A DNA stretch of 59,222 nt from Hydrogenophaga sp. A37 (GTDB lineage: Bacteria; Pseudomonadota; Gammaproteobacteria; Burkholderiales; Burkholderiaceae_C): the NCBI RefSeq assembly GCF_002001205.1, contig NZ_MUNZ01000061.1:1-59222 (forward strand), in the 5' to 3' direction. Shown here piece after piece: positions 18,243 to 31,730 of the stretch. A program made the translations under genes and the position numbers. The notes under the pieces were generated by a model. That model was not told the origin of the DNA, did no database searches, and saw only the letters and a program-made list of their open reading frames with translations. Each line of letters begins with the position of its first letter. The stretch's first letter is position 1.

Positions 18243-19553
18243 TCAAGCATCCCTCGCCAAGCGCAGCCCGCTGAACTGCCAGCGTGCGTCGGTCGGGAAG
18301 AAGTTGCGGTAGCTGGCGCGGATGTGCTCGCGTGGTGTGGCGCAGGAGCCGCCGCGCAGCACCATCTGATTGACCATGAATTTGCCGTTGTATTCGCCCA
18401 CCGCGCCGGCCCAGGGCCGGTAGCCGGGGTAGGGCAGGTAGGCGCTGGCGGTCCATTCCCACACGTCGCCGCCCATCTGCTGCAGACCGGCGCCGCTGCG
18501 CGAAAGTGGCATGGGGTGCAGCGCGCCGCTCTCCAGAAAATTGCCCTGGGTGTGCAGCGCGGTGCCGAGGGTTTGCGCCGCGTGTTCCCACTCGGCTTCG
18601 GTGGGCAGGCGGATCGGTTCGCTGGTTTGTTCGGCGTGCCAGCGGGCGTAGGCGTCGGCCTCGAACCAGCTGATGTGCACCACCGGCGTGCGCGGGTCGA
18701 TGGGCACGCGCCCGTGCAGGGTGAAGTTGGTCCAGCCGCCTTGCCGCGCCGGGTCGCCGTCTCGCCGCCAGTACAGCGGCGCTTCGAGCTGATGGGTGCG
18801 CACCCAGTCCCAGCCCGCGGCCATCCACCAGCGCGGGTCGCGGTAGCCACCGTCGTCCATGAAGGCCAGCCATTCGCCGTGGGTCACCGGGCGTGTGGCC
18901 AGCGCGTGGGGCGGCAGCAGCAGCTCGTGGCGTGGGCTTTCGTTGTCGAAGGCAAAGCCGTCTCCGGTGTGGCCCATGTGCGCGGTGCCGCCGGGAAACG
19001 CCACCCAGTCCATGGGCGCGGCGACCACGCTGCTGAGCGGCCACTGCGGGTGATAGGCCGGGTTCAGCGGGTTCATGGCCAGCAGGTGTTTGAGGTCCGT
19101 GAGCAGCAGTTCCTGGTGTTGTTGCTCGTGCTGCAGGCCCAGTTCCAGGAGCGTGTTCAGCTCGTCGTTGGATGTGTGCCGCAGCAGGGCGTCGATGCGC
19201 GCGTCCACCTGCGCCCGCCAGGCCTTGACCTCGGCCAGGCCCGGGCGCGTGATCATGCCGCGTTGCGCGCGGGGATGTTGATCACCCACGCCCTGGTAGT
19301 AGCTGTTGAACAGCATGCGGAAGGCGGGGTGAAAGGGCCGGAAGCCGGGCTCGAAACGCTCGAGGATGAATGTCTCGAAGAACCAGGTCACGTGGGCCAG
19401 ATGCCACTTGGTGGGGCTGGCGTCGAGCATGGACTGCACCTGGCAGTCGGCCTCGCTCAAGGGGGCGGCCAGCGCCAGGGTCGTCGCGCGAACCTGTGCG
19501 TAGCGCTGGGCCAGCGTGCTGGCGTTGAGGTGGTGGCGAGGCTGTGTGTTCAT
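18243..19553 (-). CDS. egtB: Ergothioneine biosynthesis sulfoxide synthase EgtB
   Basis: 436 residues. Non-heme-iron enzyme joining hercynine to a cysteine-type thiol through oxygen-dependent C-S bond formation. The N-terminal DinB-like part has the iron ligands HLAHVTWFFETF and the HEQQHQE motif; the C-terminal FGE-sulfatase domain shows VHISWFEADAYARW, LPTEAEWEHAAQ, GDVWEWTASAY and VLRGGSC. The ATG at 19553 has GGGGAG upstream; the frame extension to 19634 is not used. It lies downstream of the transporter block on the same strand, with 180 bases between. EgtD, its partner, is at 23377. It is distinct from the SenA paralogue at 24990. Confidence 0.93.
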   Translation of the reverse strand: MNTQPRHHLNASTLAQRYAQVRATTLALAAPLSEADCQVQSMLDASPTKWHLAHVTWFFETFILERFEPGFRPFHPAFRMLFNSYYQGVGDQHPRAQRGMITRPGLAEVKAWRAQVDARIDALLRHTSNDELNTLLELGLQHEQQHQELLLTDLKHLLAMNPLNPAYHPQWPLSSVVAAPMDWVAFPGGTAHMGHTGDGFAFDNESPRHELLLPPHALATRPVTHGEWLAFMDDGGYRDPRWWMAAGWDWVRTHQLEAPLYWRRDGDPARQGGWTNFTLHGRVPIDPRTPVVHISWFEADAYARWHAEQTSEPIRLPTEAEWEHAAQTLGTALHTQGNFLESGALHPMPLSRSGAGLQQMGGDVWEWTASAYLPYPGYRPWAGAVGEYNGKFMVNQMVLRGGSCATPREHIRASYRNFFPTDARWQFSGLRLARDA

Positions 19554-19733
19554 GGTGTGTCTCCCCGGTGGGTGCCGCTGGTGATGCCGTCCTTGTCTCG
19601 CGGGAGGGGCGGCCCATGGCGTTGATCGCAACAAGCTTTGGCACCTTACGCCACCTCAGGCCGTGCCACCAAATGCGGGCCCATCACCCCAACGGCGGCG
19701 AGGGCGATGCGCCCGCCGCGCGGCCCAGGGGGT

Positions 19734-20561
19734 TCAGCGGGTCATCCAGCGCCGTGCGCCCAGGCTGGCCGCATCCACCAGCGCCACCAGCAGCAGCATC
19801 GCGCCGAGGATGGTGGCGGTCTTGCCCATGTGGAACAGGCCCATGTGAAAGGCCAGCAATGCGCCCAGGCCCCCGGCGCCCACCACGCCCAGCACGGCGG
19901 CGGCGCGGATGTTGTTTTCCCAGCGGTAGAGCGTGTAGCTCATGAGCTGCGGCAGCACCTGCGGCAAGGTGGCATAGAGGAACACGCGGCCGTTGCCCAC
20001 GCCCTGCGTGCGCAGGGAATCGCCCGGGCCGGGCGGCGCATTTTCCATCGCTTCAGCAAACAGGCGGCCCAGCACGCCGGTGGTGTGCAGCGCCAGCGCC
20101 AGCGTGCCGGCCAGCGGCCCGAGTCCGGCCGAGATCAGCAGCAGCGCGGCCCACACCAGCTCGGGAATGCTGCGCAACGCGTTGAGCAGCAGGCGCGTGG
20201 GCGCGCGGCCCCAGGCGGTGTGCGCTTCATGCAGCCGGCTCGCCGGCAGCGCCAGCGCCAGCCCGGCCACCGCGGCGAGCAGGGTGCCCAGCGCCGACAT
20301 GGCCAGCGTTTCCCAGGCCGCGACCGCCACCTTGTTCAGGAAGGCGGGTGAGGTGTCGGCCGGAAAAAATTCACCGAGAAAGCGGCCCATGCTCTGCGCC
20401 GCTTCCAGCGAGAAGAACTGCGCCCACTGCAGATCCAGCGACCAGAAGCTGGCCACCACCAGCACCAGCAGGCTCGCCATGAACCAGCAGGCCTTGCAGC
20501 GCGCGCTGAACAGCGGCGGCGGCAGTTTGTAGGGCGGGTTGGCGGCTGGGGGCGGCATCAT
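19734..20561 (-). CDS. PhnE-type ABC transporter permease (second of pair)
   Basis: 275 residues with about six helices. The conserved permease loop is in RWENNIRAAAVLGVVGAGGLGALL, the hallmark of phosphonate-type (PhnE) permeases. ATG 20561 (followed by a second ATG) lies 4 bases after the stop of the first permease gene, so the two are coupled. Together with the ATPase and binding protein it makes a complete importer. The substrate is judged from context (see the binding protein). Confidence 0.88.
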   Translation of the reverse strand: MMPPPAANPPYKLPPPLFSARCKACWFMASLLVLVVASFWSLDLQWAQFFSLEAAQSMGRFLGEFFPADTSPAFLNKVAVAAWETLAMSALGTLLAAVAGLALALPASRLHEAHTAWGRAPTRLLLNALRSIPELVWAALLLISAGLGPLAGTLALALHTTGVLGRLFAEAMENAPPGPGDSLRTQGVGNGRVFLYATLPQVLPQLMSYTLYRWENNIRAAAVLGVVGAGGLGALLAFHMGLFHMGKTATILGAMLLLVALVDAASLGARRWMTR

Positions 20562-20565
20562 GGTG

Positions 20566-21402
20566 TCACCCCAGGGCCTTGCGCAGCCACGCACTGATGC
20601 GGTCGGCGAGTGCGACGAGCGCCATGAACACCAGCAGCATGGTGGCCACCTCGCCGCCGCTGAACATCTTCATCGAGTTGTCCATCTGCTGGCCCAGGCC
20701 GCCCGCGCCCACGAAGCCCAGCACCACGGAGGATCGGATCGCGCACTCCCAGCGGTACACGGTGTAGCTGGTGAGCTCGGCCGCGCTGGCCGGCAGCAGG
20801 CCGTAGAAGAAGGCCTGCAGGCGCCCCGCACCGTTGCGCAGCAGCGTCTCGGTGGCATGGGTCTCGCCGCTCTCCAGGATCTCGCCATACACCTTGCCCA
20901 GCATGCCGCCGTAGGTGAGCGCGATGGCCAGCACGCCGGCCGTGGGGCCGAGGCCGACCACGCGCACGAACACCAGCGCCCAGACCAGCTCGGGGATGCT
21001 GCGCAGCACGATCAGCCCCCAGCGCACCGCTTGCCGCAGCCAGAACGGCCCGCGCGCCATGCGGCCCGAGAGTGCCGAGATCGAGAGCACCCGCGTGGAC
21101 AGCAGCGTGAACGGCACCGCCAGCACCAGCGCCAGCGTGATGCCCGCGGTGGCCATGGCCACGGTGCGCCAGGTTTCTTGCGCCACCAGAGCCAAGAACT
21201 CGCCACTGTGCGCCAGCGGCCAGAAACTCGCGAGGAAGTGGCCGCTGACCTTCAGGCTCTCGGGTTCCAGCATCACCCAGGGTTTGAACTCCGTGGCCAC
21301 CAGCAGTGGCCACAGCAGGACGAGACAGGCACCGCTCCAGAACAGGCGCGAAAGCCAGGCCGGGTCGCGCGTGGGCGCGGTGCGCAAGCTCATGGCCGTC
21401 AT
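20566..21402 (-). CDS. PhnE-type ABC transporter permease (first of pair)
   Basis: 278 residues with six helices and the loop RWECAIRSSVVLGFVGAGGLGQQM. Sequence resemblance to the next permease (SIPELVWA and VVGLGPTAGVLA versus SIPELVWA and SAGLGPLAGTLA) shows an old duplication giving a heterodimeric channel. GGGAG lies 9 bases before the ATG. The upstream gap to the ATPase gene contains a short GC-rich repeat (21429-21466). Confidence 0.88.
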   Translation of the reverse strand: MTAMSLRTAPTRDPAWLSRLFWSGACLVLLWPLLVATEFKPWVMLEPESLKVSGHFLASFWPLAHSGEFLALVAQETWRTVAMATAGITLALVLAVPFTLLSTRVLSISALSGRMARGPFWLRQAVRWGLIVLRSIPELVWALVFVRVVGLGPTAGVLAIALTYGGMLGKVYGEILESGETHATETLLRNGAGRLQAFFYGLLPASAAELTSYTVYRWECAIRSSVVLGFVGAGGLGQQMDNSMKMFSGGEVATMLLVFMALVALADRISAWLRKALG

Positions 21403-21428
21403 GCAAACGGGCTCCCGGCAAGGCTTTT

Positions 21429-21466
21429 CCCCCTCGCCCCACTGGGGAGAGGGTTGGGGTGAGGGG
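21429..21466. repeat. CCCTCNCCCC...GGGGTGAGGGG palindromic intergenic repeat
   Basis: A GC-rich inverted repeat (ccctcgcccc, actggggagaggg, ttggggtgagggg) between the ATPase and permease genes. The same family occurs inside the permease gene at 57032-57117. It can form a stem in RNA and may tune expression of the distal permease genes. Confidence 0.7.
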
Positions 21467-21492
21467 CGTGCCGGGCTGCCGTGATCATGGGT

Positions 21493-22323
21493 TCACCGGC
21501 AGTGCATGACCACAGGTGGTGGTGTGGGTGGCGAGCGTGCGTCCGCCGGGGCGGGACCATGCAGCTCGTCTTCATGTTGGTCGTACAGCGCGGCCAGGTG
21601 CTCGCGCGTGACCTGCGCCGCCGGCAGGTCGAAGGCCAGCGCGCCGTCGCGCAGGCCCACGATGCGGGGGAAGTGTTCAAGCGCCACCTCCACCTGGTGC
21701 AGCGTGGTCACCAGCGTGGCACCGCGCTCGCGCGCACCCGTCAGCAAGGTGTGAATGGCCTGCCGCGCACGCGACGGGTCCAGCGCCGACAAGGGCTCAT
21801 CAATCAACCACAGCGAGGCCGGCGCGAGCAGCGCCCGCGCCAGACCCACGCGCTGGCGCTCGCCGCCCGAGAGCCGGTCCACCCGCTCGAACAGTTTGTC
21901 GGCCAGGTCGAAGCGGTCCAGCGCCTCGAAGGCCGCAGGAATCTCCGCCGGGTAGAACAGCGAACGCAGGCTCTGCCACAGGCCCATGGCCGGCAGGCGA
22001 CCGGCCAGCACGGACGTCACCACGCGCTGGCGCGGCGGCAGCGGGGGCACCTGCGGCGCGAGGAACAGCCGCCCGCGCTGGCGCTGCAACTCGGCGCGCG
22101 GCAGCTGCCAGGGATCTTGCCCGTCCAGCCGCAGCGAGCCGGTGGCCGGCGGCAGCGCGCAGGCCAGCACCTGCAGCAGCGTGGTCTTGCCGGCGCCCGA
22201 GGGGCCGATCACGGCCACCTGTTCGCCCGCGGCCACGCTCAGGGTGAGCGCCTGGAGGGCCGGCGCCACACCCGCGCGCGCCGCCGGGTGGCGGGCGCTG
22301 GCACCTTGCAGCTGAATGTTCAA
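21493..22323 (-). CDS. PhnC-type ABC transporter ATP-binding protein
   Basis: 276 residues with Walker A GPSGAGKTT, signature LSGGERQRVGLARAL, Walker B LWLIDEPLSALD, and the switch His in TTLHQVEVAL. It resembles phosphonate/phosphite-type importer ATPases. The start is taken as TTG (22323), 16 bases after the binding-protein stop; there is no early in-frame ATG, and GTG alternatives would lie inside the upstream gene. The C-terminus is extended by a Pro-rich tail. Confidence 0.88.
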   Translation of the reverse strand: MNIQLQGASARHPAARAGVAPALQALTLSVAAGEQVAVIGPSGAGKTTLLQVLACALPPATGSLRLDGQDPWQLPRAELQRQRGRLFLAPQVPPLPPRQRVVTSVLAGRLPAMGLWQSLRSLFYPAEIPAAFEALDRFDLADKLFERVDRLSGGERQRVGLARALLAPASLWLIDEPLSALDPSRARQAIHTLLTGARERGATLVTTLHQVEVALEHFPRIVGLRDGALAFDLPAAQVTREHLAALYDQHEDELHGPAPADARSPPTPPPVVMHCR

Positions 22324-22339: not shown

Positions 22340-23215
22340 TCACAGCAGCTCGGCGCTGCGTGCGGCGGCTTCGATGCCCTTGTAGTTTTCGGCCTTGGTC
22401 GGCACGAACTTCGTGGCGCGCTGCAACTCCAGAATTTCTTTGCCTTCGGGCGTGGCCTTGGTGAGCGAGGTCAGCGCATCGACCAGCTTCTGGCGCGTGG
22501 CGGCGGGCATGTCGGCGTGTACCGACCAGTTGTAGTCAAAGTAGGGCGGGGTGGTGTAGATCACGCGCACCTGGGTGGGGTCGACCTTCTTGTCGGCCAC
22601 GAACTTTTCCCACACCGAGATGTTGAGCGCGCCGCCCTGTACCTTGCCCGAGGCGACGGCCGCGATGGTCGCGTCGTGCGCGCCGCTGAAGGCCACGCGC
22701 TTGAAGTCTTTCTCGGGGTTGATGCCCTGCTGCAGCAGGAAGCTGCGCGGCATCAGGTGGCCACTGGTGGAGCTCTGTGAACCGAAGGACACGTCTTTGC
22801 CCTTGAGGTCGGCCAGGCTGTTGATGGCTGGGTCGCTGGTGATGAAGACGGACTTGAATTTCTCGTCTTCCTCGCGCTGCACCAGCGGGATCACCTTGCC
22901 GCCCGAGCGCACGTTGGCCTGCACAAACGTGAAGCCACCGAACCAGGCCATGTCCACCTTCTTGTTGACCAGGGCTTCTACCGAAGCAGCGTAGTCGGTC
23001 ACGGGGGTGAACTCGACCTTCATGCCGAGCTTGGATTCGAGGTACTTCACCAGCGGTGCGGCCTTGCGCGCCAGCTCGGTGGGTGATTCGTCGGGGATCG
23101 CGGTGACGCGAAAGACGGCCTGGGCCTGGGCCAGGCCTGTGAAGGCGGTGCCGGCGGCGAGCACGGCGCAGGTCAAGAGTGCGCGTTTGGTGCTGGAGAA
23201 AAAGCGGGTGGTCAT
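22340..23215 (-). CDS. PhnD-type periplasmic binding protein, putative selenium-oxyanion importer component
   Basis: 291 residues. A signal peptide (cleavage after AQA) is followed by a phosphonate-binding-type fold: FRVTAIPDESPTEL, YLESKLGMKVEFTPVTDY, VDMAWFGGFTFVQA, DVSFGSQSSTSGHLMPR and NISVWEKFV. A subfamily with this IPDE-x-P-TEL start is annotated as a putative selenate-transport component because it co-occurs with selenium genes; that is my recollection of the family plus the context here, not a measured substrate. First gene of the importer operon, divergent from egtD. Phosphonate or phosphite remains the alternative. Confidence 0.85.
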   Translation of the reverse strand: MTTRFFSSTKRALLTCAVLAAGTAFTGLAQAQAVFRVTAIPDESPTELARKAAPLVKYLESKLGMKVEFTPVTDYAASVEALVNKKVDMAWFGGFTFVQANVRSGGKVIPLVQREEDEKFKSVFITSDPAINSLADLKGKDVSFGSQSSTSGHLMPRSFLLQQGINPEKDFKRVAFSGAHDATIAAVASGKVQGGALNISVWEKFVADKKVDPTQVRVIYTTPPYFDYNWSVHADMPAATRQKLVDALTSLTKATPEGKEILELQRATKFVPTKAENYKGIEAAARSAELL

Positions 23216-23376: not shown

Positions 23377-24378
23377 ATGCACAAGCCACCCCCCGCACCT
23401 CATTTCGTGCAATTGCACCAGACCGACCACGCGGCCGTGCGGGCCGAGCTGGCGGCGGGTTTGTTGGCGCATCCGCCTCACGCTTCGCCCAAGTTCTTCT
23501 ACGACGCGCTGGGTTCGCGCCTGTTTGACGCCATCACCGAACTGGCCGAGTACTACCCCACCCGCACCGAGGCCGCCCTCTTTGCGCAACACGGCGCGGA
23601 CATGGCGCAGCGCGTGCCGGCGGGCGTGGTGCTGATCGACCTGGGCGCGGGCAATTGCGCCAAGGCCGCCAGCCTGTTTGCGGTGCTGCGGCCGACCGCC
23701 TATGTGGCGGTGGACATTTCGGTGGACTACCTGCGCGGGGCCATGGGCCAACTGCAGCAGCGGCACCCCGAACGGCCCATGTTGGGCCTGGGCATGGACT
23801 TCTCCAGCGAGCTGGCCTTGCCGCCTGCTGCCACCGAGTGGCTGGCGCGCCACGAGCTCGGCGGCGCGCCGCGCTGCGTGTTCTACCCCGGCTCCAGCAT
23901 CGGCAACTTCAACCCCATCGACGCCCTGGCCCTGCTGCGCCAGGCGCGCGCCGTGTGCGCCGAGGGCGGGCCCGGCGGCGGCCTCCTGATCGGCGTGGAC
24001 CGCGTGAAGGACAAGGCTGTTCTGGAGCCCGCCTACGACGACCCGCTGGGCGTCACCGCCGCTTTCAACCGCAACCTGCTGTTGCACACCAACGCCTTGC
24101 TCGGTGCCGACTTCGCGCCCGCGCGCTGGCAGCACGTGGCGTTCTTCAATGAGACCGAATCGCGCATCGAGATGCACCTGCAAGCCAACGGCGCGCAGAC
24201 CGTGCGCTGGCCCGGCGGCGAGCGCGCCTTTGTCGACGGCGAGCGGCTGCACACCGAGAACTCCTACAAGTGGGCGCCGGCCGATTTCGATGGGCTGCTG
24301 CGCGAAGCGGGTTTTGGCCCAGCCCAACACTGGACCGACCCGCAAGGGTGGTTCAGTGTGTTCTGGGCGCCGGTGTGA
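23377..24378 (+). CDS. egtD: L-histidine N-alpha-methyltransferase EgtD
   Basis: 333 residues, typical length. It trimethylates histidine to hercynine using SAM. Motifs: ASPKFFYDALGSRLFDAIT, the ITELAEYYPTRTE segment that shapes the histidine site, SAM motif LIDLGAGNCAKA, FYPGSSIGNFNP, and the C-terminal E-x-SYKW signature (HTENSYKW). Hercynine is the shared acceptor for EgtB and SenA, so this gene serves both branches. It is divergent from the importer operon and followed by two cysteine-rich peptide genes on the same strand. Confidence 0.96.
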   Translation: MHKPPPAPHFVQLHQTDHAAVRAELAAGLLAHPPHASPKFFYDALGSRLFDAITELAEYYPTRTEAALFAQHGADMAQRVPAGVVLIDLGAGNCAKAASLFAVLRPTAYVAVDISVDYLRGAMGQLQQRHPERPMLGLGMDFSSELALPPAATEWLARHELGGAPRCVFYPGSSIGNFNPIDALALLRQARAVCAEGGPGGGLLIGVDRVKDKAVLEPAYDDPLGVTAAFNRNLLLHTNALLGADFAPARWQHVAFFNETESRIEMHLQANGAQTVRWPGGERAFVDGERLHTENSYKWAPADFDGLLREAGFGPAQHWTDPQGWFSVFWAPV

Positions 24379-24450
24379 GATGTTGAAAACCATGTTTGCG
24401 CCATGTGCATGGGCTCGGTCGCTTCCACTGCCTGCACTACAGTTCGCGGC

Positions 24451-24735
24451 ATGCGCACGCTGATCAAACTCCTGCTCGTGCTGTCGCTCTGGTGGTCGGC
24501 GGTGGCGCCTGCCGTGGCGGCGGCCATGGGCTGCTGCGAACCCGACACGCCCTGTTGCCTGGTGCAGGGCCTGGGCCGTGGCTGCGCGGTGTGCCCGCCC
24601 GCCGCGCTCCACGTGAGCGCCACACAGCAGCCTGTGGGCGAGACAGGCAGACACAGCGCCCCTGTGGTCTGGGTGGCTTTTCAGCTGAGCGAAGGCATTG
24701 ACGACATCTGGCGCCCGCCCATGGTGCTGCGCTGA
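24451..24735 (+). CDS. Small exported cysteine-rich protein A
   Basis: 94 residues. MRTLIKLLLVLSLWW...AVAAA is a clear signal peptide; the next 25 residues hold six cysteines in the pattern GCCEPDTPCCLVQG...GCAVC, followed by an uncharged tail. No known domain was recognised. An in-frame ATG at 24403 exists, but 24451 begins exactly at the signal peptide. It shares the PCCL motif with the next gene, suggesting joint function, for example binding of a soft metal or selenium/sulfur species. Some copper-related small proteins look similar. Function unknown. Confidence 0.7.
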   Translation: MRTLIKLLLVLSLWWSAVAPAVAAAMGCCEPDTPCCLVQGLGRGCAVCPPAALHVSATQQPVGETGRHSAPVVWVAFQLSEGIDDIWRPPMVLR

Positions 24736-24772: not shown

Positions 24773-24910
24773 ATGAAAAACCCATTTGCCAAGGCGGTGT
24801 CCGCCATCGCATTGCTCACCTTGTCCGCCAAAGCCATGGCCGCCACCACGGCCGCCTGCTGCGTGGCCGGCGCCCTGTGCTGCCTGGGTGGCATGCCCTG
24901 CTGCCTGTAA
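24773..24910 (+). CDS. Tiny exported cysteine-rich peptide B (three CC pairs)
   Basis: 45 residues. MKNPFAKAVSAIALLTLSAKAMA is a signal peptide; the mature peptide would be only about 22 residues with three Cys-Cys pairs spaced by six and five residues, ending in PCCL at the C-terminus. It lies 37 bases after peptide A and 21 bases before a strong hairpin terminator, so it looks expressed as the end of an egtD-peptide unit. It could be a metal- or selenium-binding peptide or a modified-peptide precursor; no modification enzyme is recognisable nearby. Confidence 0.65.
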   Translation: MKNPFAKAVSAIALLTLSAKAMAATTAACCVAGALCCLGGMPCCL

Positions 24911-24989: not shown

Positions 24990-26222
24990 TCAGGCCTGCA
25001 CGCTGCGGAACCCGGCCACGATGTCGTTGCGCTCGGGGGTGAAGTAGTTGCGGTACTGCGGGTGGCGCATGCGCGGCGCGGTGGCGAAGCTCGCGCCCTT
25101 GAGCACTGGGCGGCCGTCGAACCACGGCTGCGAATAGTCCACATAGGGGTGCGGCGCAAAGCCGGGGAAGGGCGCGAAGGGGCTGGCGGTCCACTCCCAC
25201 ACGCGGCCCCATTCGAACCCGGGGACTTGCGCCGCCACTTCCCACTCGGCCTCGGTCGGCAGGCGCCGCCCGGCCCAGGCGCACCAGGCCTGCGCCTCGA
25301 ACGCGCTGAGGTGGCTGGCCGGGGCGGCCGGGTCCAGCGCTTGCCAGCGGCCAAAAACCTGCTGCTCCCAGCCCTGCGCGCCCTGCCGCAGGTAGCGCGG
25401 CGCAAGCCGCTCCTGCGAGAGGCGCCAGATCCAGCCCGGTGCGCCCCAGAAGCGGCGTTGCGCGTAAGAGCCGCTGTCGATGAACGGCAGAAACTGCGCC
25501 CAGGTGACGGGCTGCGCGTCGATCTCGAAGGCGTTGACGGCCACACCGTGTGTACCGAGTTCGTTGTCAAACGCAAAGCCGGAGCCGCTGCGGCCCAGCG
25601 GCCAGTCGGTGGAGGCGATCTGCAGCGGGGGTTGGCGTGCGCGCGTCGAGGAAGCCGGGCAAGCGACCATCGGATCAAAGCCCAGCGTCTGCGCCATGTA
25701 CACCGCGGCCTCGGCGTGCATGTCTTCGTGGAACAGCGCGAGGCGAAAGAAGTACAGGCCGTTGTCGTCTTCGGGCGCGTCGGCGAGCAAGGCCAGCGTG
25801 TCGCTCAGGCTGGCCACGAGGTCGGCGCGCACGGCGTCGGCATCGGGCAGGTTCAGCCGCCAGCGCGCGTCGTGCGGCACCTCGCTGGAGTTGTAGAGCG
25901 CGTCGGCGTCCACCCCGTGTGCGGCCTGTCGTGCCGCGCTGCGCGGGGCCAGCGGGTCGGCGTTCACGCCCCGATGGCGCTGCGGGTTTCGCGCCAACCA
26001 CCAGTCGGCAAACCAGCCGATGTGGCCCAGTTCCCACAGCGGCGGGTTCAGCTCGGGCGTGCAGGGCACGCGCAGGTCGGGGCCGAGCGCGGCCTCGTGG
26101 GCGGCCAGCAGCGCCAGGCTGCGCGCGCGTGTATCACGCAGTGCGTCGGCCAGCCACACCTTGCCGCCGCAGCGCGCGGATTCGGCATCGGACACAATCG
26201 CTGACGTCAGGCTCAGACCCAT
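24990..26222 (-). CDS. senA: Selenoneine synthase SenA (EgtB paralogue)
   Basis: 410 residues. Iron-dependent enzyme that joins hercynine to a selenosugar with C-Se bond formation, on the way to selenoneine. The N-terminal iron-binding part shows LWELGHIGWFADWW and FHEDMHAEAAVY (HEDMHAE in place of the HEQQHQE of EgtB); the C-terminal FGE-sulfatase part has LPTEAEWEVAAQ, RVWEWTASPFAPFPGF and VLKGASFATA. Its identity as SenA rather than EgtB rests on divergence from the EgtB at 18243 and on the adjacent senB. Start at 26222, preceded by AGAGGG 7 bases upstream; it overlaps the senB start by 2 bases on the opposite strand. Confidence 0.92.
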   Translation of the reverse strand: MGLSLTSAIVSDAESARCGGKVWLADALRDTRARSLALLAAHEAALGPDLRVPCTPELNPPLWELGHIGWFADWWLARNPQRHRGVNADPLAPRSAARQAAHGVDADALYNSSEVPHDARWRLNLPDADAVRADLVASLSDTLALLADAPEDDNGLYFFRLALFHEDMHAEAAVYMAQTLGFDPMVACPASSTRARQPPLQIASTDWPLGRSGSGFAFDNELGTHGVAVNAFEIDAQPVTWAQFLPFIDSGSYAQRRFWGAPGWIWRLSQERLAPRYLRQGAQGWEQQVFGRWQALDPAAPASHLSAFEAQAWCAWAGRRLPTEAEWEVAAQVPGFEWGRVWEWTASPFAPFPGFAPHPYVDYSQPWFDGRPVLKGASFATAPRMRHPQYRNYFTPERNDIVAGFRSVQA

Positions 26223-27201
26223 GAAAAAACCCTCTGTGTGCATCGTCACCCCGGCCTTCGCCGACGCCAACAACGGCAACTGGCAGACCGCGCACCGCTG
26301 GGCCCAGATGCTTCGCGCGCATTATGCGGTTCGCCTGGCGAAGCAATGGCCCGACTCGAATGTCACCGACGACGGCACGGACATCCTGATCGCGCTGCAC
26401 GCGCGGCGCTCGGCCGCCAGCGTGGCCGCCTGGGCGCAGGCGCACCCGCACCAACCGCTGGTGCTCGCCCTCACCGGCACCGACCTCTACCGCGACATCC
26501 AGAGCGACCCAATCGCGCAGCGCTCGCTGGCGCTGGCGCACCGGCTCATCGTGCTGCAGGAGCTTGGTCCCATGGCCTTGCCCGAATCTCTGCGAGGCAA
26601 ATGCCGGGTGGTGTTTCAGTCCAGCACACGGCGCGCCACCCTGCCCAAGACCCGCGCCCACCTGCGCGCGCTCACGGTGGGCCATCTGCGCGACGAAAAG
26701 TCGCCGCAGACCCTGTTTGAAGCGGCACGGCTGATCGGCCCCGATGAGGGCATCTTCATTGACCACATCGGCGGGGCGCTGGACCCTGCGCTGGGCGATT
26801 CCGCGCGCCAGACCGCGGCCGATTGCCCGCACTACCGCTGGCTCGGCAACCAGCCCCACGCCGCCACACGCGCGCGCATCCAGCGCGCCCATGTGCTGGT
26901 GCACGCCAGCCGCATGGAAGGCGGCGCCCACGTGATCATGGAGGCCGCGCTCTGCGGCACGCCGGTGCTGGCCTCGCGCATCGACGGCAATGTGGGCATG
27001 CTGGGCGTCGACTACGCGGGTTACTTTCCCCTGGGCGACGCCGCTGCTCTCACCGCCCTGCTGCGCACTGCGCGCGAAGACCAGGCTCGCGGCGGTGGGT
27101 GGCTCACCGACATGCAAACGTTATGTCTGGCGCGCTCGGCACGCTTTGAACCGGACGCCGAGCGCGCTGCCTTGTTGTCCCTGCTGGCCGAGCTGACCTG
27201 A
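26221..27201 (+). CDS. senB: Selenosugar synthase SenB
   Basis: 326 residues, a GT-B glycosyltransferase relative. It starts with the family-typical VCIVTPAFADANNGNWQTAHRW and has ALTGTDLYRDI, TVGHLRDEKSPQTLF and the C-terminal donor-site region ASRMEGGAHVIMEAALCGTPVLAS. SenB transfers selenium from selenophosphate to a UDP-sugar to make the selenosugar used by SenA. The start ATG lies within the CATG shared with senA. Selenophosphate would come from the SelD at 30657, 3.5 kb downstream on the same strand. Confidence 0.93.
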   Translation: MKKPSVCIVTPAFADANNGNWQTAHRWAQMLRAHYAVRLAKQWPDSNVTDDGTDILIALHARRSAASVAAWAQAHPHQPLVLALTGTDLYRDIQSDPIAQRSLALAHRLIVLQELGPMALPESLRGKCRVVFQSSTRRATLPKTRAHLRALTVGHLRDEKSPQTLFEAARLIGPDEGIFIDHIGGALDPALGDSARQTAADCPHYRWLGNQPHAATRARIQRAHVLVHASRMEGGAHVIMEAALCGTPVLASRIDGNVGMLGVDYAGYFPLGDAAALTALLRTAREDQARGGGWLTDMQTLCLARSARFEPDAERAALLSLLAELT

Positions 27202-27385: not shown

Positions 27386-28522
27386 ATGACCCAACCCACC
27401 CCCGCCCAAACCCTGCTGAACACCCTTGACGGTGTGGTCACCACCGTCATCGACGCCGCCGCCATCGAGACCGACAAGCTGGGCCAATTTCCCGCCAGCA
27501 GCCTGGCCGCCCTGCGCAGCGCCGGCCTGCTGGGCCTGATCAGCGACGCCACCGTGGGCGGTGCCGGCGGTGACATGGGCCACGCCAGCCGCGCGGTGCG
27601 CCGCATCGCGCAGTCCTGCCCGTCTACCGCCATGATCCTGGCCATGCACTACAGCGCCGTGGCCGTGATCGAGAAGTTCGGTGACGAAGCCACCCGCAAG
27701 GCCATCGCCGCCGGCCAGCACCTGAGCACGCTGGCGTTTTCCGAGGCCGGTTCGCGCAGCCACTTCTGGGCCCCCACCAGCACCGCCCGCGCCGACGGCG
27801 CTGACGCCGTGCTCGATGCGAGCAAGAGCTGGGTCACCGCCGCCGGCCACGCCGATTCCTACGTGTGGTCCAGCCAACCGCTGGCCGCCACCGGTGCCAG
27901 CAGCATCTGGCTGATGCCGCGCGAGACAGCCGGCCTCTCCACCGTGGCGCCGTTTGACGGCCTGGGCCTGCGCGGCAACGCCTCGTCGCCGGTGCGCGCC
28001 GAGGGCGTGCGCCTGCCGCTGACCGCGATGTTGGGGGCCGATGGTGGCGGGTTTGACGTGATGATGGGCACGGTGCTGCCCTGGTTCTCGGTGCTCAACG
28101 CCTCGGGCTCGGTGGGCATGATGGACGGCGCGATCACCCGCGCTGCGGCCCACGTCAACGCCACCCGCTTTGCCCACCTGGGCACCAGCATCGCCGAGCT
28201 GCCCACGGCCCGCGCCTACATCGCCCGCGCCAAGATCCAGGCCGACAGCGCCGCCGTGCTGCTGGACGACACCATCGCCGCCATCGCCGGCGCGCGGGCC
28301 GACACCATGCTGCGCGTGCTGCAGGTCAAGGCCCACGCGGCCGAGTCCGCCCTGCAGGTCACCGACCTCGCCATGCGGGTCTGCGGCGGTGCTGCCTTCC
28401 GCAAGGAGGTGGGCGTCGAGCGACTGTTCCGTGATGCGCGCGCGGCCTCCGTGATGGCGCCCACGTCCGATGTGCTCTACGATTTCATCGGCAAGGCCAC
28501 ACTGGGCATGGACCTGTTCTGA
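27386..28522 (+). CDS. Acyl-CoA-dehydrogenase-like flavoprotein of unknown substrate
   Basis: 378 residues with acyl-CoA dehydrogenase fold: an N-terminal helical domain (AALRSAGLLGLI), the middle domain flavin segment (LSTLAFSEAGSRSHFW), and a C-terminal helical domain ending RVCGGAAFRKEVGVERLFRDARAASVMAPTSD. In classical members the catalytic Glu lies in the Y-E-G-T segment near this point; here it reads MAPTSD, so that base is missing. This favours a flavin monooxygenase-like or otherwise altered enzyme. Start ATG 27386; the frame from 27215 is not supported. First of a tight four-gene run ending in selD; 184 bases separate it from senB. Confidence 0.85.
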   Translation: MTQPTPAQTLLNTLDGVVTTVIDAAAIETDKLGQFPASSLAALRSAGLLGLISDATVGGAGGDMGHASRAVRRIAQSCPSTAMILAMHYSAVAVIEKFGDEATRKAIAAGQHLSTLAFSEAGSRSHFWAPTSTARADGADAVLDASKSWVTAAGHADSYVWSSQPLAATGASSIWLMPRETAGLSTVAPFDGLGLRGNASSPVRAEGVRLPLTAMLGADGGGFDVMMGTVLPWFSVLNASGSVGMMDGAITRAAAHVNATRFAHLGTSIAELPTARAYIARAKIQADSAAVLLDDTIAAIAGARADTMLRVLQVKAHAAESALQVTDLAMRVCGGAAFRKEVGVERLFRDARAASVMAPTSDVLYDFIGKATLGMDLF

Positions 28523-28548
28523 ACACCCACCACTGAAAAGGACACCGC

Positions 28549-29412
28549 ATGTCGCAAACACTCGTGCTGGGCGCCGTCGCCTACGCGCCCAAGGTCGTCA
28601 CCATCTGGGAAGGCTTCAAGGAATTTTTCGTCCGCAACGGCCTGCCCTTCGACTTCATCCTCTACTCCAACTACGAGCGCCAGGTCGAGGCGCAGTTCAG
28701 CGGTGAGGTGCACGTCGCCTGGAACTCGCCGCTGGCCTGGCTGCGCGCCGAGCGCATGGCCAAAGCGCGCGGCCTGTCGGACCAGGTGCGCGCCATCGCC
28801 ATGCGCGACACCGACTGCGACCTGACCTCGGTCATCGTGGTGCGCACCGGTGCCGGCATCAACACGCTGGCCGACCTGCGCGGCAAACGCATCGGCGTCG
28901 GTGCCATCGACTCGCCGCAGGCCACGCTGATCCCGCTGCAGTGGCTGCGTGAGCAGGGCATCGACCCCGACACCGCGCTCACCGTGGTGCGCCACGACGT
29001 GCTGGGCGGCAAACACGGTGACCACGTCGGCGGCGAGCGCGACGCGGCGCGTGCCCTGGTCGCGGGCGAGGTGGATGCGGCGGTGATGATCGACGGCAAC
29101 CACCTGCAGTTCACGCAGGAAGGCACCTTGCCCGCCGGCCGCAGCACGGTGCTGGCGCGCACGCCGGCCTTCGACCACTGCAACTTCACCACCAGCCCGG
29201 GCGCGCCCGCCGACCTGATGGCGCGTTTCGAGACCCTGGTGCGCGCCATGTCGTTCGACGACCCGCAGGTGCGCCCGCTGCTGGAGCTCGAAGGCCTGCG
29301 CGAATGGAAAGACGGCCGCACCAGCGGCTATGCCTGGCTCGACCGCGCCGTGGACGCATCCCGCTTTTACGATGCGCAGGGCAACATCACCGCCCATGAC
29401 TACCGCTACTGA
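28549..29412 (+). CDS. PhnD-like solute-binding-fold protein without signal peptide
   Basis: 287 residues with the two-lobe fold of phosphonate-type binding proteins: LVLGAVAYAPKVVTIWEGF, VEAQFSGEVHVAWNSPLAWL, INTLADLRGKRIGVGAIDSPQAT and AARALVAGEVDAAVMIDG. There is no signal peptide; residue 2 onward is already the first strand, so it should stay in the cytoplasm. It may bind a small-molecule substrate or cofactor for the neighbouring oxygenases, or act as an enzyme. Its end overlaps the next gene by 17 bases, implying coupled synthesis. Ligand unknown. Confidence 0.85.
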   Translation: MSQTLVLGAVAYAPKVVTIWEGFKEFFVRNGLPFDFILYSNYERQVEAQFSGEVHVAWNSPLAWLRAERMAKARGLSDQVRAIAMRDTDCDLTSVIVVRTGAGINTLADLRGKRIGVGAIDSPQATLIPLQWLREQGIDPDTALTVVRHDVLGGKHGDHVGGERDAARALVAGEVDAAVMIDGNHLQFTQEGTLPAGRSTVLARTPAFDHCNFTTSPGAPADLMARFETLVRAMSFDDPQVRPLLELEGLREWKDGRTSGYAWLDRAVDASRFYDAQGNITAHDYRY

Positions 29413-30613
29413 CACCGCCACCAGCGGCCCGGTGCTCGACCTGGGCGCGCTGGGCATGGACACCGGCGCCCACGTGCTGGTGGCCCACGCCCTGCGCCAG
29501 CGCGACCCGGCGCTGGCGCTGCGCGTGCGCGGCAGCCACCCCGAGCTGGGTGTGCACCTGAGCGGCTGGTGCCGCAAGCGCGGCCTGACCGTGACCAGCC
29601 AGGACGGCGAACACCGCATCGCGCCCGGCCCGGGCGAAGCGCAGCGCTGGCGCGGCGCGCAGCGGGCCGGCGCGTCCGACCCCGGCGCGCCCGGCGCGGT
29701 TGTGGCCCAGCCCAACGCCCGCTGGGGTGTGGCCGCGCGCGGCGCGCTGGTGGAGGCCGGCGCGCCCGAGTTCCATTTTCCGCTGTCCGACAAAGCCGCG
29801 CTCTGGGCCGACGACGCGGCGCGCCTCTACGCCGCCGCCGTCGCCGCCCAGTGGGACCCCAACAAGGCCATCGACTGGGCAACGCCCTTCGAACTGCCCG
29901 ACGAGGTGGAAGACGCCGTCGTCCAGGTGATGACCTATCTGGTGGAAAACGAAAACGCCGCCCTGCTGGTGCCGGCGCGTTTTCTCGGCCAGATGCACCC
30001 GCACTTCCGCGAGGTGTTGCAGTGCCTGGCGATCACGATTGCCGACGAGGCGCGGCACGTCGAGGTCTTCACGCGGCGCATCACGCTCAAGGGCCGTGGC
30101 CCGGCGCTGTCCACCGCCGGCGCGCAGGCCTCGCTCAAGACCCTGTTCGACGAGCCCGAGTTTTCGGTGGCGTCGTTCCTGTTGTCGGTGCTGGGCGAAG
30201 GCACCTTTGTGAACCTGCTGAACTTCCTCAACACCTACGCGCCCGATCCGGTCACGCGCCAGATCTGCCGCCTGGCCAGCCGTGACGAGGCGCGCCACGT
30301 GGCTTTCGGCATGTCGCACCTCGCCTGGCAGATGGCGCAGGACCCGGACCTTAAACACCGCCTGAACGCGGCGGTCGAGCGGCGCTACGACGAACTCGCC
30401 AGCACCGACGGCCTGAACGAAGAGGTGTTCGACGCGCTGATCCTGCTGGCCGCCGGCGCCTTCACGCCCGAGGCCGTGGCCACAGGCTACGAACGGGTGC
30501 AGCGCCTGAAGCAGGAAATGGCCGACGGCCGGCGCGCGCGCCTGGCCAAGCTGGGCTTCGCGCCCGAAGCGGCGCAGGCCCTGGCCGAGCGCCACACCCG
30601 CAACTTCATGTGA
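29396..30613 (+). CDS. TusA-like domain fused to a ferritin-like diiron oxygenase domain
   Basis: 405 residues. The N-terminal 80 residues (VLDLGALGMDTGAHVLVAHAL, SHPELGVHLSGWCRKRGLTV) follow the TusA/SirA pattern, but the catalytic CPxP is replaced by MDTG; a Cys remains in GWCRKRG. From about residue 160 comes a four-helix diiron domain with E in VENENA, ExxH in ADEARHVEVF, E in LGEGTFVN and ExxH in RDEARHVAFG, the full set of iron ligands. The TusA call is by pattern and is less sure than the diiron call. It overlaps the preceding gene by 17 bases and is followed by selD after 43 bases. Confidence 0.82.
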   Translation: MTTATDTATSGPVLDLGALGMDTGAHVLVAHALRQRDPALALRVRGSHPELGVHLSGWCRKRGLTVTSQDGEHRIAPGPGEAQRWRGAQRAGASDPGAPGAVVAQPNARWGVAARGALVEAGAPEFHFPLSDKAALWADDAARLYAAAVAAQWDPNKAIDWATPFELPDEVEDAVVQVMTYLVENENAALLVPARFLGQMHPHFREVLQCLAITIADEARHVEVFTRRITLKGRGPALSTAGAQASLKTLFDEPEFSVASFLLSVLGEGTFVNLLNFLNTYAPDPVTRQICRLASRDEARHVAFGMSHLAWQMAQDPDLKHRLNAAVERRYDELASTDGLNEEVFDALILLAAGAFTPEAVATGYERVQRLKQEMADGRRARLAKLGFAPEAAQALAERHTRNFM

Positions 30614-30656
30614 GCCGACGCGCTCCTTCGCTCTTTCATTTACCGCACTCGATCCT

Positions 30657-31730
30657 ATGAACACCTCCACCACCCCCGCGCAGACCCAACCCCGCCTCAC
30701 CAGCCTCTCGCACGGCGGCGGCTGCGGCTGCAAGATCGCGCCCGGCGTGCTGAGCGAAATCCTCAAAGGCACGTCGGCCATGCCCATGCCCAAAGAGCTG
30801 CTGGTCGGCATCGAGACGGCCGACGACGCGGCGGTCTACCAGCTCAACGATGAGCAGGCGCTGATCGCGACCACCGACTTCTTCATGCCCATCGTGGACG
30901 ACCCCTACGAGTTCGGCCGCATCGCCGCCACCAACGCCATCAGCGACGTCTACGCCATGGGCGGCACGCCCATCATGGCGCTGGCCCTGGTCGGCATGCC
31001 GATTGCTGTGCTCAGCACCGAGACCATCGGCAAGATCCTGCAAGGCGGGCAGGACGTGTGCCGCGCCGCCGGCATCCCCATCGCGGGCGGCCACACCATC
31101 GACTCGGTCGAACCCATCTATGGCCTGGTCGCCATGGGGCTGATCCATCCCAAGCGCGTCAAGCGCAACGCCGACGCGCAGGTGGGCGACCGCCTGATCC
31201 TCGGCAAACCCATTGGTGTGGGCGTGCTCTCGGCCGCGCTGAAGAAAGACGCGCTGCCCGCCGAGGGCTACGCGCAGATGATCGCCAACACCACCAAGCT
31301 CAACACACCCGGCCCCGATCTGGCCAAGCTCGACGGCGTGCACGCGCTGACCGACATCACCGGCTTCGGTCTCGCCGGCCACGTTCTGGAGATGGCGCGC
31401 GGCTCCAACACCACGGTGCAGATCAACATGGCGCGTGTGCCGCTGATCACCGGCGTGCGCGAGCTCGCCGCCCAAGGCATGGTCACCGGCGCCAGCGGCC
31501 GCAACTGGGCGGCGTATGGCCACGAGGTGCGCCTGGGCGCCAACCTGGAGCCGGTGGACCAGGCTCTGCTGTCCGACCCGCAAACCAGCGGCGGCCTGCT
31601 CGTGGCCTGCGCACCCGAGGCGGTGGCCGAGGTACTGGCGGTCTTTGCGCGCCACGGCTTTTCAGAAGCGGCCGAGGTGGGTGAGATCGTGAAAGCCGAG
31701 GCCGATGGCGTGCGGCTTCGGGTGGCGTGA
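30657..31730 (+). CDS. selD: Selenide, water dikinase (selenophosphate synthetase; SelD/SenC role)
   Basis: 357 residues. Makes selenophosphate from selenide and ATP. The glycine-rich N-terminus HGGGCGCKI keeps the catalytic Cys (residue 23) and Lys (26) seen in E. coli SelD, followed by DDAAVYQL, TDFFMPIVDDPYEFGRIAATNAISDVYAMGG and AGGHTIDS, all canonical. It is a full-length Cys-type enzyme. In this window its obvious consumer is SenB; no selenocysteine (selA, selB, selC) or tRNA-selenation (selU) genes are present, so wider roles cannot be judged. Last gene of the flavoprotein-binding protein-diiron run. Confidence 0.96.
   Translation: MNTSTTPAQTQPRLTSLSHGGGCGCKIAPGVLSEILKGTSAMPMPKELLVGIETADDAAVYQLNDEQALIATTDFFMPIVDDPYEFGRIAATNAISDVYAMGGTPIMALALVGMPIAVLSTETIGKILQGGQDVCRAAGIPIAGGHTIDSVEPIYGLVAMGLIHPKRVKRNADAQVGDRLILGKPIGVGVLSAALKKDALPAEGYAQMIANTTKLNTPGPDLAKLDGVHALTDITGFGLAGHVLEMARGSNTTVQINMARVPLITGVRELAAQGMVTGASGRNWAAYGHEVRLGANLEPVDQALLSDPQTSGGLLVACAPEAVAEVLAVFARHGFSEAAEVGEIVKAEADGVRLRVA

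Follow-up and report, generated by a model that had tools for sequence, protein, structure and literature searches.

What do the three genes that precede selD, the selenophosphate synthetase gene, contribute to Hydrogenophaga sp. A37? The window analysed here is positions 1 to 59,222 of contig NZ_MUNZ01000061.1 (RefSeq assembly GCF_002001205.1), from a genome of 5.55 Mb, in which positions 27386-31730 hold four plus-strand genes, the last being selD (Table 1). The first three, the trio, encode an acyl-CoA-dehydrogenase-fold flavoprotein (gene 1), a binding-protein-like partner (gene 2) and a TusA-like/diiron fusion (gene 3). An earlier note, made from the sequence alone, had described four tightly spaced genes with one overlapping pair and selD at the end, and the coordinates confirm this: genes 1 and 2 are 26 bases apart, genes 2 and 3 overlap by 17 bases, and 43 bases separate gene 3 from selD. 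We find it very probable that the trio is linked to selenium use, and the balance tips toward a role in supplying SelD. Our reading as a whole, held with slightly less than even confidence, is that the trio frees selenium oxidatively from an organic compound, likely as selenide passed to SelD.

Genes 1 to 3 are one module

Relatives of the trio were collected by aligning gene 3 against one genome per species and keeping the best 80 loci of at least 348 relatives. These 80 include close relatives (five Variovorax, three Luteimonas and five Massilia) and come, by record title, from beta- and gammaproteobacteria, Acidobacteria, Myxococcota, Planctomycetota, Rokubacteria, Actinomycetota and others; the nearest relative of the window among them is a Hydrogenophaga metagenome-assembled genome (MAG), locus L004. 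Gene 2 is present in 79 of the 80 loci and gene 1 in 75, and two of the five loci without gene 1 start at or near gene 3. When another 12 stretches, in part repeats of the same loci, were added and genes were counted at 75% coverage or more, all three genes were found together in 84 loci, always on the same strand and within 5 kb, and in the gene order of the window in 79. Genes 1 to 3 are one module with a conserved gene order.

Selenium genes recur near the trio

To the question of what accompanies the module, the flanking genes give a consistent answer. A selenium gene lies within 10 kb of gene 3 in 26 of the 80 loci, against about 1.8-2.7 expected in a simple model that places 5-6 selenium loci per genome at random; where both flanks reach 9 kb or more, the count is 23 of 52 loci. 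Identity-based marker thresholds overlook distant selenium genes, such as the formate dehydrogenase subunit adjoining the trio in two Streptomyces loci (L063 and L111). Nine recurrent neighbors are annotated: eight are selA, selB, formate dehydrogenase subunits, fdhE, fdhD or mnmH, and one, found in seven loci, is an SDR gene.

Several loci associate the trio with genes for selenocysteine (Sec) synthesis. Four of five Variovorax loci carry the series fdoG, fdoH, fdoI, fdhE, selA, gene 1, gene 2, gene 3, selB, selD, a selenate-type ABC transporter and mnmH; the fifth ends at selB, and fdoG of one of these loci (L026) has an in-frame TGA. The order selA-trio-selB occurs in 8 of the 80 loci and selA-selB-trio in 4. 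The trio is co-directional with selA and selB in 12, and the stretch around it also contains a formate dehydrogenase alpha-subunit sequence in 11 of the 12. These 12 loci contradict the earlier view that the trio does not fit Sec synthesis. Elsewhere selD lies 3' of gene 3, in Xenophilus, in Comamonadaceae ALPHA2B and in Hydrogenophaga relatives, and in Lampropedia it comes after a second flavoprotein gene. In an Actinomycetota locus (L110), a trio 34-41% identical to that of the window adjoins selB, selA and selD.

The trio co-occurs with SelD

To ask which use of selenium the module accompanies, we searched genomes for SelD, SelA and SenB at 50 of the 80 loci, picked by hand beforehand, mostly by dropping congeners and short contigs. 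SelD exceeded its cut-off in 48 of the 50, and both misses are MAGs; among class genomes the background is 56 of 232. The link to selenium that the earlier note had proposed to check is strongly supported. Ten records carry no betaproteobacterium in their title; SelD was found in nine of these, five with one in-frame TGA. SelA was present in 42 of the 50 genomes and SenB in 10 (the window genome, which has senAB and selD and no SelA, is not counted). In trio genomes without SelA, SenB was found in three (G044, G060 and G087) and MnmH beside SelD in two (G051 and G057). Two others (G040 and G076) have SelD, with SelA and SenB not found and MnmH elsewhere in the genome not searched for, and in a Delftia MAG (G054) none of SelD, SelA and SenB was found. 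Because selenophosphate is the sole thing common to the trio genomes, we assign the trio to a step no later than SelD.

Within the family of the window, selA is present in 68 of 250 genomes: in 9 of 10 trio genomes versus 59 of 240 others (Fisher p = 4e-5, kinship ignored). With one congener removed the association has p = 1.4e-4, again with kinship ignored.

In the window the selenoneine proteins SenA, SenB and SelD (SenC) adjoin the trio. None of the 80 loci, however, has sen genes close to the trio, and SenB is in so few of the 50 genomes that we rejected a sen-specific role. The tie to sen genes drawn earlier is incidental; the closest relatives (L004/G040 and G021) have the trio and selD with no SenB found.

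Predicted properties of the three proteins

Gene 1 exceeds the gathering scores of PF02771, PF02770 and PF00441, which together make up a three-domain acyl-CoA dehydrogenase fold. At the position of the catalytic Glu of medium- and short-chain acyl-CoA dehydrogenases, YEGTSEI of 2vig aligns with MAPTSDV of gene 1, which has no Glu. The missing base, already pointed out from the window alone, is a property of the whole set of homologs, in which the residue is Ala in 92 and Gly in 6 of 98 rows (some duplicate genes from overlapping loci); an ordinary acyl-CoA dehydrogenase was therefore rejected. Gene 1 shares its fold with sulfur enzymes of the DszC/SfnB type, and DszC (4doy) is among its solved relatives. 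These enzymes likewise lack the acyl-CoA base. Gene 1 matches the SfnB, DszC and sulfinopropanoyl-CoA desulfinase models but scores far below every cut-off, and it also falls below that of the Rv1679 family, which its homolog in locus L109 exceeds (637.6 bits). Two Lampropedia loci have two flavoprotein genes of this family, one upstream and a second that separates gene 3 from selD (L061, 11236-12351; L114, 10471-11586).

Gene 2 matches a type II binding-protein fold (PF12974). It falls below the cut-off of the Rv1680 SBP-like family, whereas the L109 homolog is above it (493.1 bits). As the earlier note had stated, it has no export signal: its first residue aligns at the mature start of a secreted relative, although a plain hydrophobicity scan alone did not clearly separate the two. 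His210-Cys211 is invariant across all 91 aligned rows, some of which repeat a gene because loci overlap, and is predicted to lie at the ligand site.

Gene 3 appears, as first described, to join a TusA-like domain to a diiron oxygenase-fold domain. The AurF-like diiron oxygenase profile PF11583 scores 34.0 bits (cut-off 29.6), and by alignment the ligand set E, ExxH, E, ExxH appears complete and conserved, with E186 (or E184), E218/H221, E268 and E298/H301 as predicted ligands. Its profile matches are R2lox, AurF and DUF455 models, and no radical SAM model matched in NCBIfam at E 0.01 or in Pfam at E 0.1. The TusA profile PF01206 did not match gene 3 of the window; among 18 aligned relatives it matched 16, with E values of 1 or less and 5e-6 as the best. 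In the first 120 residues of tblastn-trimmed homologs, the CPxP catalytic Cys occurs in 0 of 91 rows (some duplicate genes), and we therefore rejected a TusA sulfur relay; Cys59 occurs in 83 of 91 and is not invariant. VlmB, aldehyde-deformylating oxygenase and R2lox chains are 15-22% identical to gene 3. Unlike these enzymes and AurF, gene 3 has its diiron domain fused to a TusA-like domain.

A mycobacterial-type counterpart has a different third protein

The Rv1679, Rv1680 and Rv1681 families (NF049984, NF049985 and NF049973), whose names give no function or selenium link, share with the trio an adjacent flavoprotein and leaderless binding-protein-like partner, with a third gene adjoining. 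The third protein of the Rv1681 family is a radical SAM protein, whereas that of the window is a diiron protein, and their N-termini are weakly alike. In an Actinomycetota sample of 158 genomes, homologs of gene 2 were found in seven, and six of the seven have SelD; many SelD genes in this sample have one in-frame TGA, as expected for a Sec-containing SelD. One genome, G709, which looks like Mycobacterium from a PPE-type gene in its sequence, has a pair exceeding the Rv1679 and Rv1680 cut-offs and, as third gene, an Rv1681-family radical SAM (537.6 bits, cut-off 380).

Comparison of the third proteins gave mixed results. The first 60-70 residues of the radical SAM protein match Pfam TusA at E 0.032 (14.5 bits, cut-off 28.6). 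Against gene 3 this N-terminus has a pairwise score of 58, compared with 35 +/- 5 for shuffled sequences (0 of 300 as high), but hhalign gave no support (probability 1.7%), and tblastn with gene 3 did not retrieve the mycobacterial-type third gene. A swap of diiron for radical SAM on one carrier-like domain is possible judging from these alignments, and a related module, perhaps acting on sulfur, does occur without SelD and with radical SAM in place of diiron. Diiron and radical SAM proteins have different oxygen needs and occupy the same place in the module, which suggests one bond-breaking job done with or without oxygen.

A proposed route from organic selenium to SelD

The swap, a binding fold of an oxyanion-binding group and a base-less flavoprotein of DszC/SfnC fold together led us to the reading that the module cleaves organoselenium oxidatively and feeds SelD. 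In a fuller form, which we regard as doubtful, it would be an intracellular scavenging machine with a radical SAM version in mycobacteria. Within the cytoplasm, gene 2 would bind a small selenium compound, either anionic or organic, and present it to the enzymes of genes 1 and 3. The base-less gene 1 product may be an oxygen-using or other oxidizing enzyme of the DszC/SfnC kind that does not act on acyl-CoA, and the diiron domain of gene 3 may hydroxylate the carbon adjacent to selenium, so that flavoenzyme and diiron oxygenase would break the C-Se bond with oxygen, while the TusA-like domain would be a docking or carrier part. SelD would turn the selenide released into selenophosphate for selenocysteine, selenouridine or, in the window, selenoneine. 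The exact oxidative chemistry in particular is a speculative part of the proposal.

Several observations weigh against the proposal. The substrate of the trio and all chemical steps are predicted only. Gene 2 scores higher with a phosphate/phosphonate model than with a selenate model (56.3 versus 45.5 bits), and its acidic Asp121 is aligned to the anion-binding loop, which speaks against a plain dianion as ligand. SelD is common anyway, in 230 of 250 genomes of the window family and 109 of 158 Actinomycetota genomes, so that finding it with the trio in those groups is hardly informative; for trio genomes, which come from several phyla, the class sample is an imprecise comparison. Gene 3 is in 10 of the 250 family genomes; most SelD users of the family manage without it. 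Genes 1 and 2 occur with no gene 3 beside them in an Actinomycetota locus (L105), whose genome has SelD, and G709 keeps genes 1 and 2 beside the radical SAM gene with no SelD at E 1e-50. The earlier note had named, as evidence against a selenium role, relatives lying mostly in unrelated contexts with selD absent. SelD is in nearly all trio genomes searched, though 54 of the 80 loci have no selenium gene in the flank (in 25 of these one side is shorter than 9 kb, in 29 not).

Alternative explanations

The trio could instead build a selenium metabolite or cofactor downstream of SelD, like SenA and SenB. Two oxidative enzymes with a carrier-like domain would suit biosynthesis, selD comes last in the four-gene run of the window and after the trio in Xenophilus, Lampropedia and Hydrogenophaga relatives, and G040 and G076 have trio and SelD with neither SelA nor SenB found. 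For an independent metabolite, however, a position between selA and selB, as in 8 of the 80 loci, would be odd, and within the family the trio tracks selA. We consider such a role unlikely, and the context agrees more with selenium release than with a new metabolite.

A less probable idea is that the trio acts on a sulfur compound or some other substrate and that the selenium link is indirect, for example through shielding of selenium enzymes from sulfur or through sulfur salvage. The pair of genes 1 and 2 next to a radical SAM gene in G709, which lacks detectable SelD, would agree with this, as would the subthreshold matches of gene 1 to sulfur-enzyme models and a taurine-type ABC binding protein upstream of the trio in one Lampropedia locus (L061). 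Set against these are recurrent neighbors that are selenium genes and the presence of SelD in 48 of 50 genomes with the diiron form.

It is more doubtful still that the trio detoxifies, stores or senses surplus selenium instead of supplying it. Such a function would suit every organism that uses selenium, with the cytoplasmic binding protein as a possible buffer for toxic species and the oxidative enzymes as possible detoxifiers of selenols. The nine annotated recurrent neighbors include no regulator, efflux or selenite-reduction gene, however, and the rarity of the trio among SelD-bearing relatives is a better fit to a special source of selenium than to a general safety device.

A role of the trio in formate dehydrogenase or molybdenum cofactor supply, and not in selenium use, is very improbable: formate dehydrogenase genes do lie within 10 kb in 16 of the 80 loci and fdhD in 8, and in Lampropedia selD is followed by fdhD, MobB-like and MoaA-like genes (the last two named by eye), but this enzyme is a usual Sec protein and so accompanies selA, and SelD occurs without SelA in seven of the 50 genomes and in that of the window, some with senAB or mnmH.

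Relation to described selenium systems

The published selenoneine pathway consists of three enzymes only, SenA, SenB and SenC (PMC9814287), as it does in the available part of a second account (PMC10891094). The accessible text of one survey lists YedF, YedE, DUF3343 and LysR_Se as selenium candidates found through selenium-gene neighborhood (PMC5322559). YedF resembles gene 3 in having a TusA/SirA-like domain, and was likewise found by neighborhood, but it keeps CPxP and has a DsrE domain, whereas gene 3 lacks CPxP and has a diiron domain instead; the YedF profile TIGR03527 (SirA plus DsrE domains) was not among the NCBIfam matches of gene 3 at E 0.01. Passages of another paper name a SirA-like protein, HP1 and HP2 (PMC2432076). 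In the main texts of comparative-genomics papers on selenium genes, the words 'acyl-CoA' and 'ferritin' do not occur, nor 'TusA' where checked. Open-licence papers yielded nothing on Rv1679 with Rv1680 or on Rv1681 with radical SAM and, by titles, abstract openings and passages, no description of the trio module. As a selenium system we therefore regard the module as new; its component folds are known.

The trio lies in a selenium and ergothioneine island

Selenium and ergothioneine genes make up an island at about 18-32 kb of the window (Table 1). The island encodes a single EgtD with both EgtB and SenA, so that hercynine would serve ergothioneine and selenoneine alike. In four Variovorax loci, homologs of the permease and ATPase genes of its putative selenate transporter lie next to that same binding protein. 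Between EgtD and SenA, a 45-residue exported-looking peptide (24773-24910, plus strand) ends in three Cys-Cys pairs, and an open reading frame upstream of it (24403-24735) has Cys-Cys pairs too; open reading frames with three such pairs were absent from loci L117, L026, L041 and L122, and L121 has one unlikely candidate. The window has no tRNA and no Rfam match at gathering score. Plasmid records gave no match at E 1e-40, and a plasmid-borne trait was therefore rejected.

Table 1. Genes of the island, with the radical SAM gene of locus L109 for comparison
Feature	Position	Strand	Description	Profile match
EgtB	18243..19634	-		570 bits
Permease-like genes and ATPase (21493-22323)	19734..22323	-	same putative ABC transporter as next row	profile scan: ATPase only
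Periplasmic binding protein	22340..23215	-	putative selenate ABC transporter; neighbor	TIGR04553, 402.5 bits (cut-off 250)
EgtD	23377..24378	+	histidine N-methyltransferase, gives hercynine; neighbor	TIGR03438, 345 bits (cut-off 290.9)
SenA	24990..26222	-	selenoneine synthase; neighbor	NF041186, 516 bits (cut-off 420)
SenB	26221..27201	+	selenosugar synthase, consumes SelD product; neighbor	TIGR04348, 431 bits (cut-off 300)
Gene 1	27386..28522	+	acyl-CoA-dehydrogenase-fold flavoprotein without catalytic Glu (MAPTSDV segment)	NF049984 (Rv1679 family), 381.8 bits (cut-off 600)
Gene 2	28549..29412	+	phosphonate-type binding-protein fold, no signal peptide	NF049985 (Rv1680 family), 235 bits (cut-off 400)
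Gene 3	29396..30613	+	TusA-like domain (about residues 11-77, no CPxP) and diiron oxygenase-fold domain (about residues 144-402)	
Gene 4, SelD (SenC)	30657..31730	+	selenophosphate synthetase	TIGR00476, 437 bits (cut-off 125)
Rv1681-family radical SAM protein	L109 7697-8695	-	adjoins homologs of genes 1 and 2	

Significance

According to the accessible part of a 2022 review, no high-affinity selenium transport system has been identified (PMC9312934). If our reading is true, the trio could explain how such bacteria obtain trace selenium. A module that sits inside Sec operons, or together with selenoneine or selenouridine users lacking Sec, makes a supply step to SelD directly testable, and the trio gives a context to the NCBI families Rv1679, Rv1680 and Rv1681.

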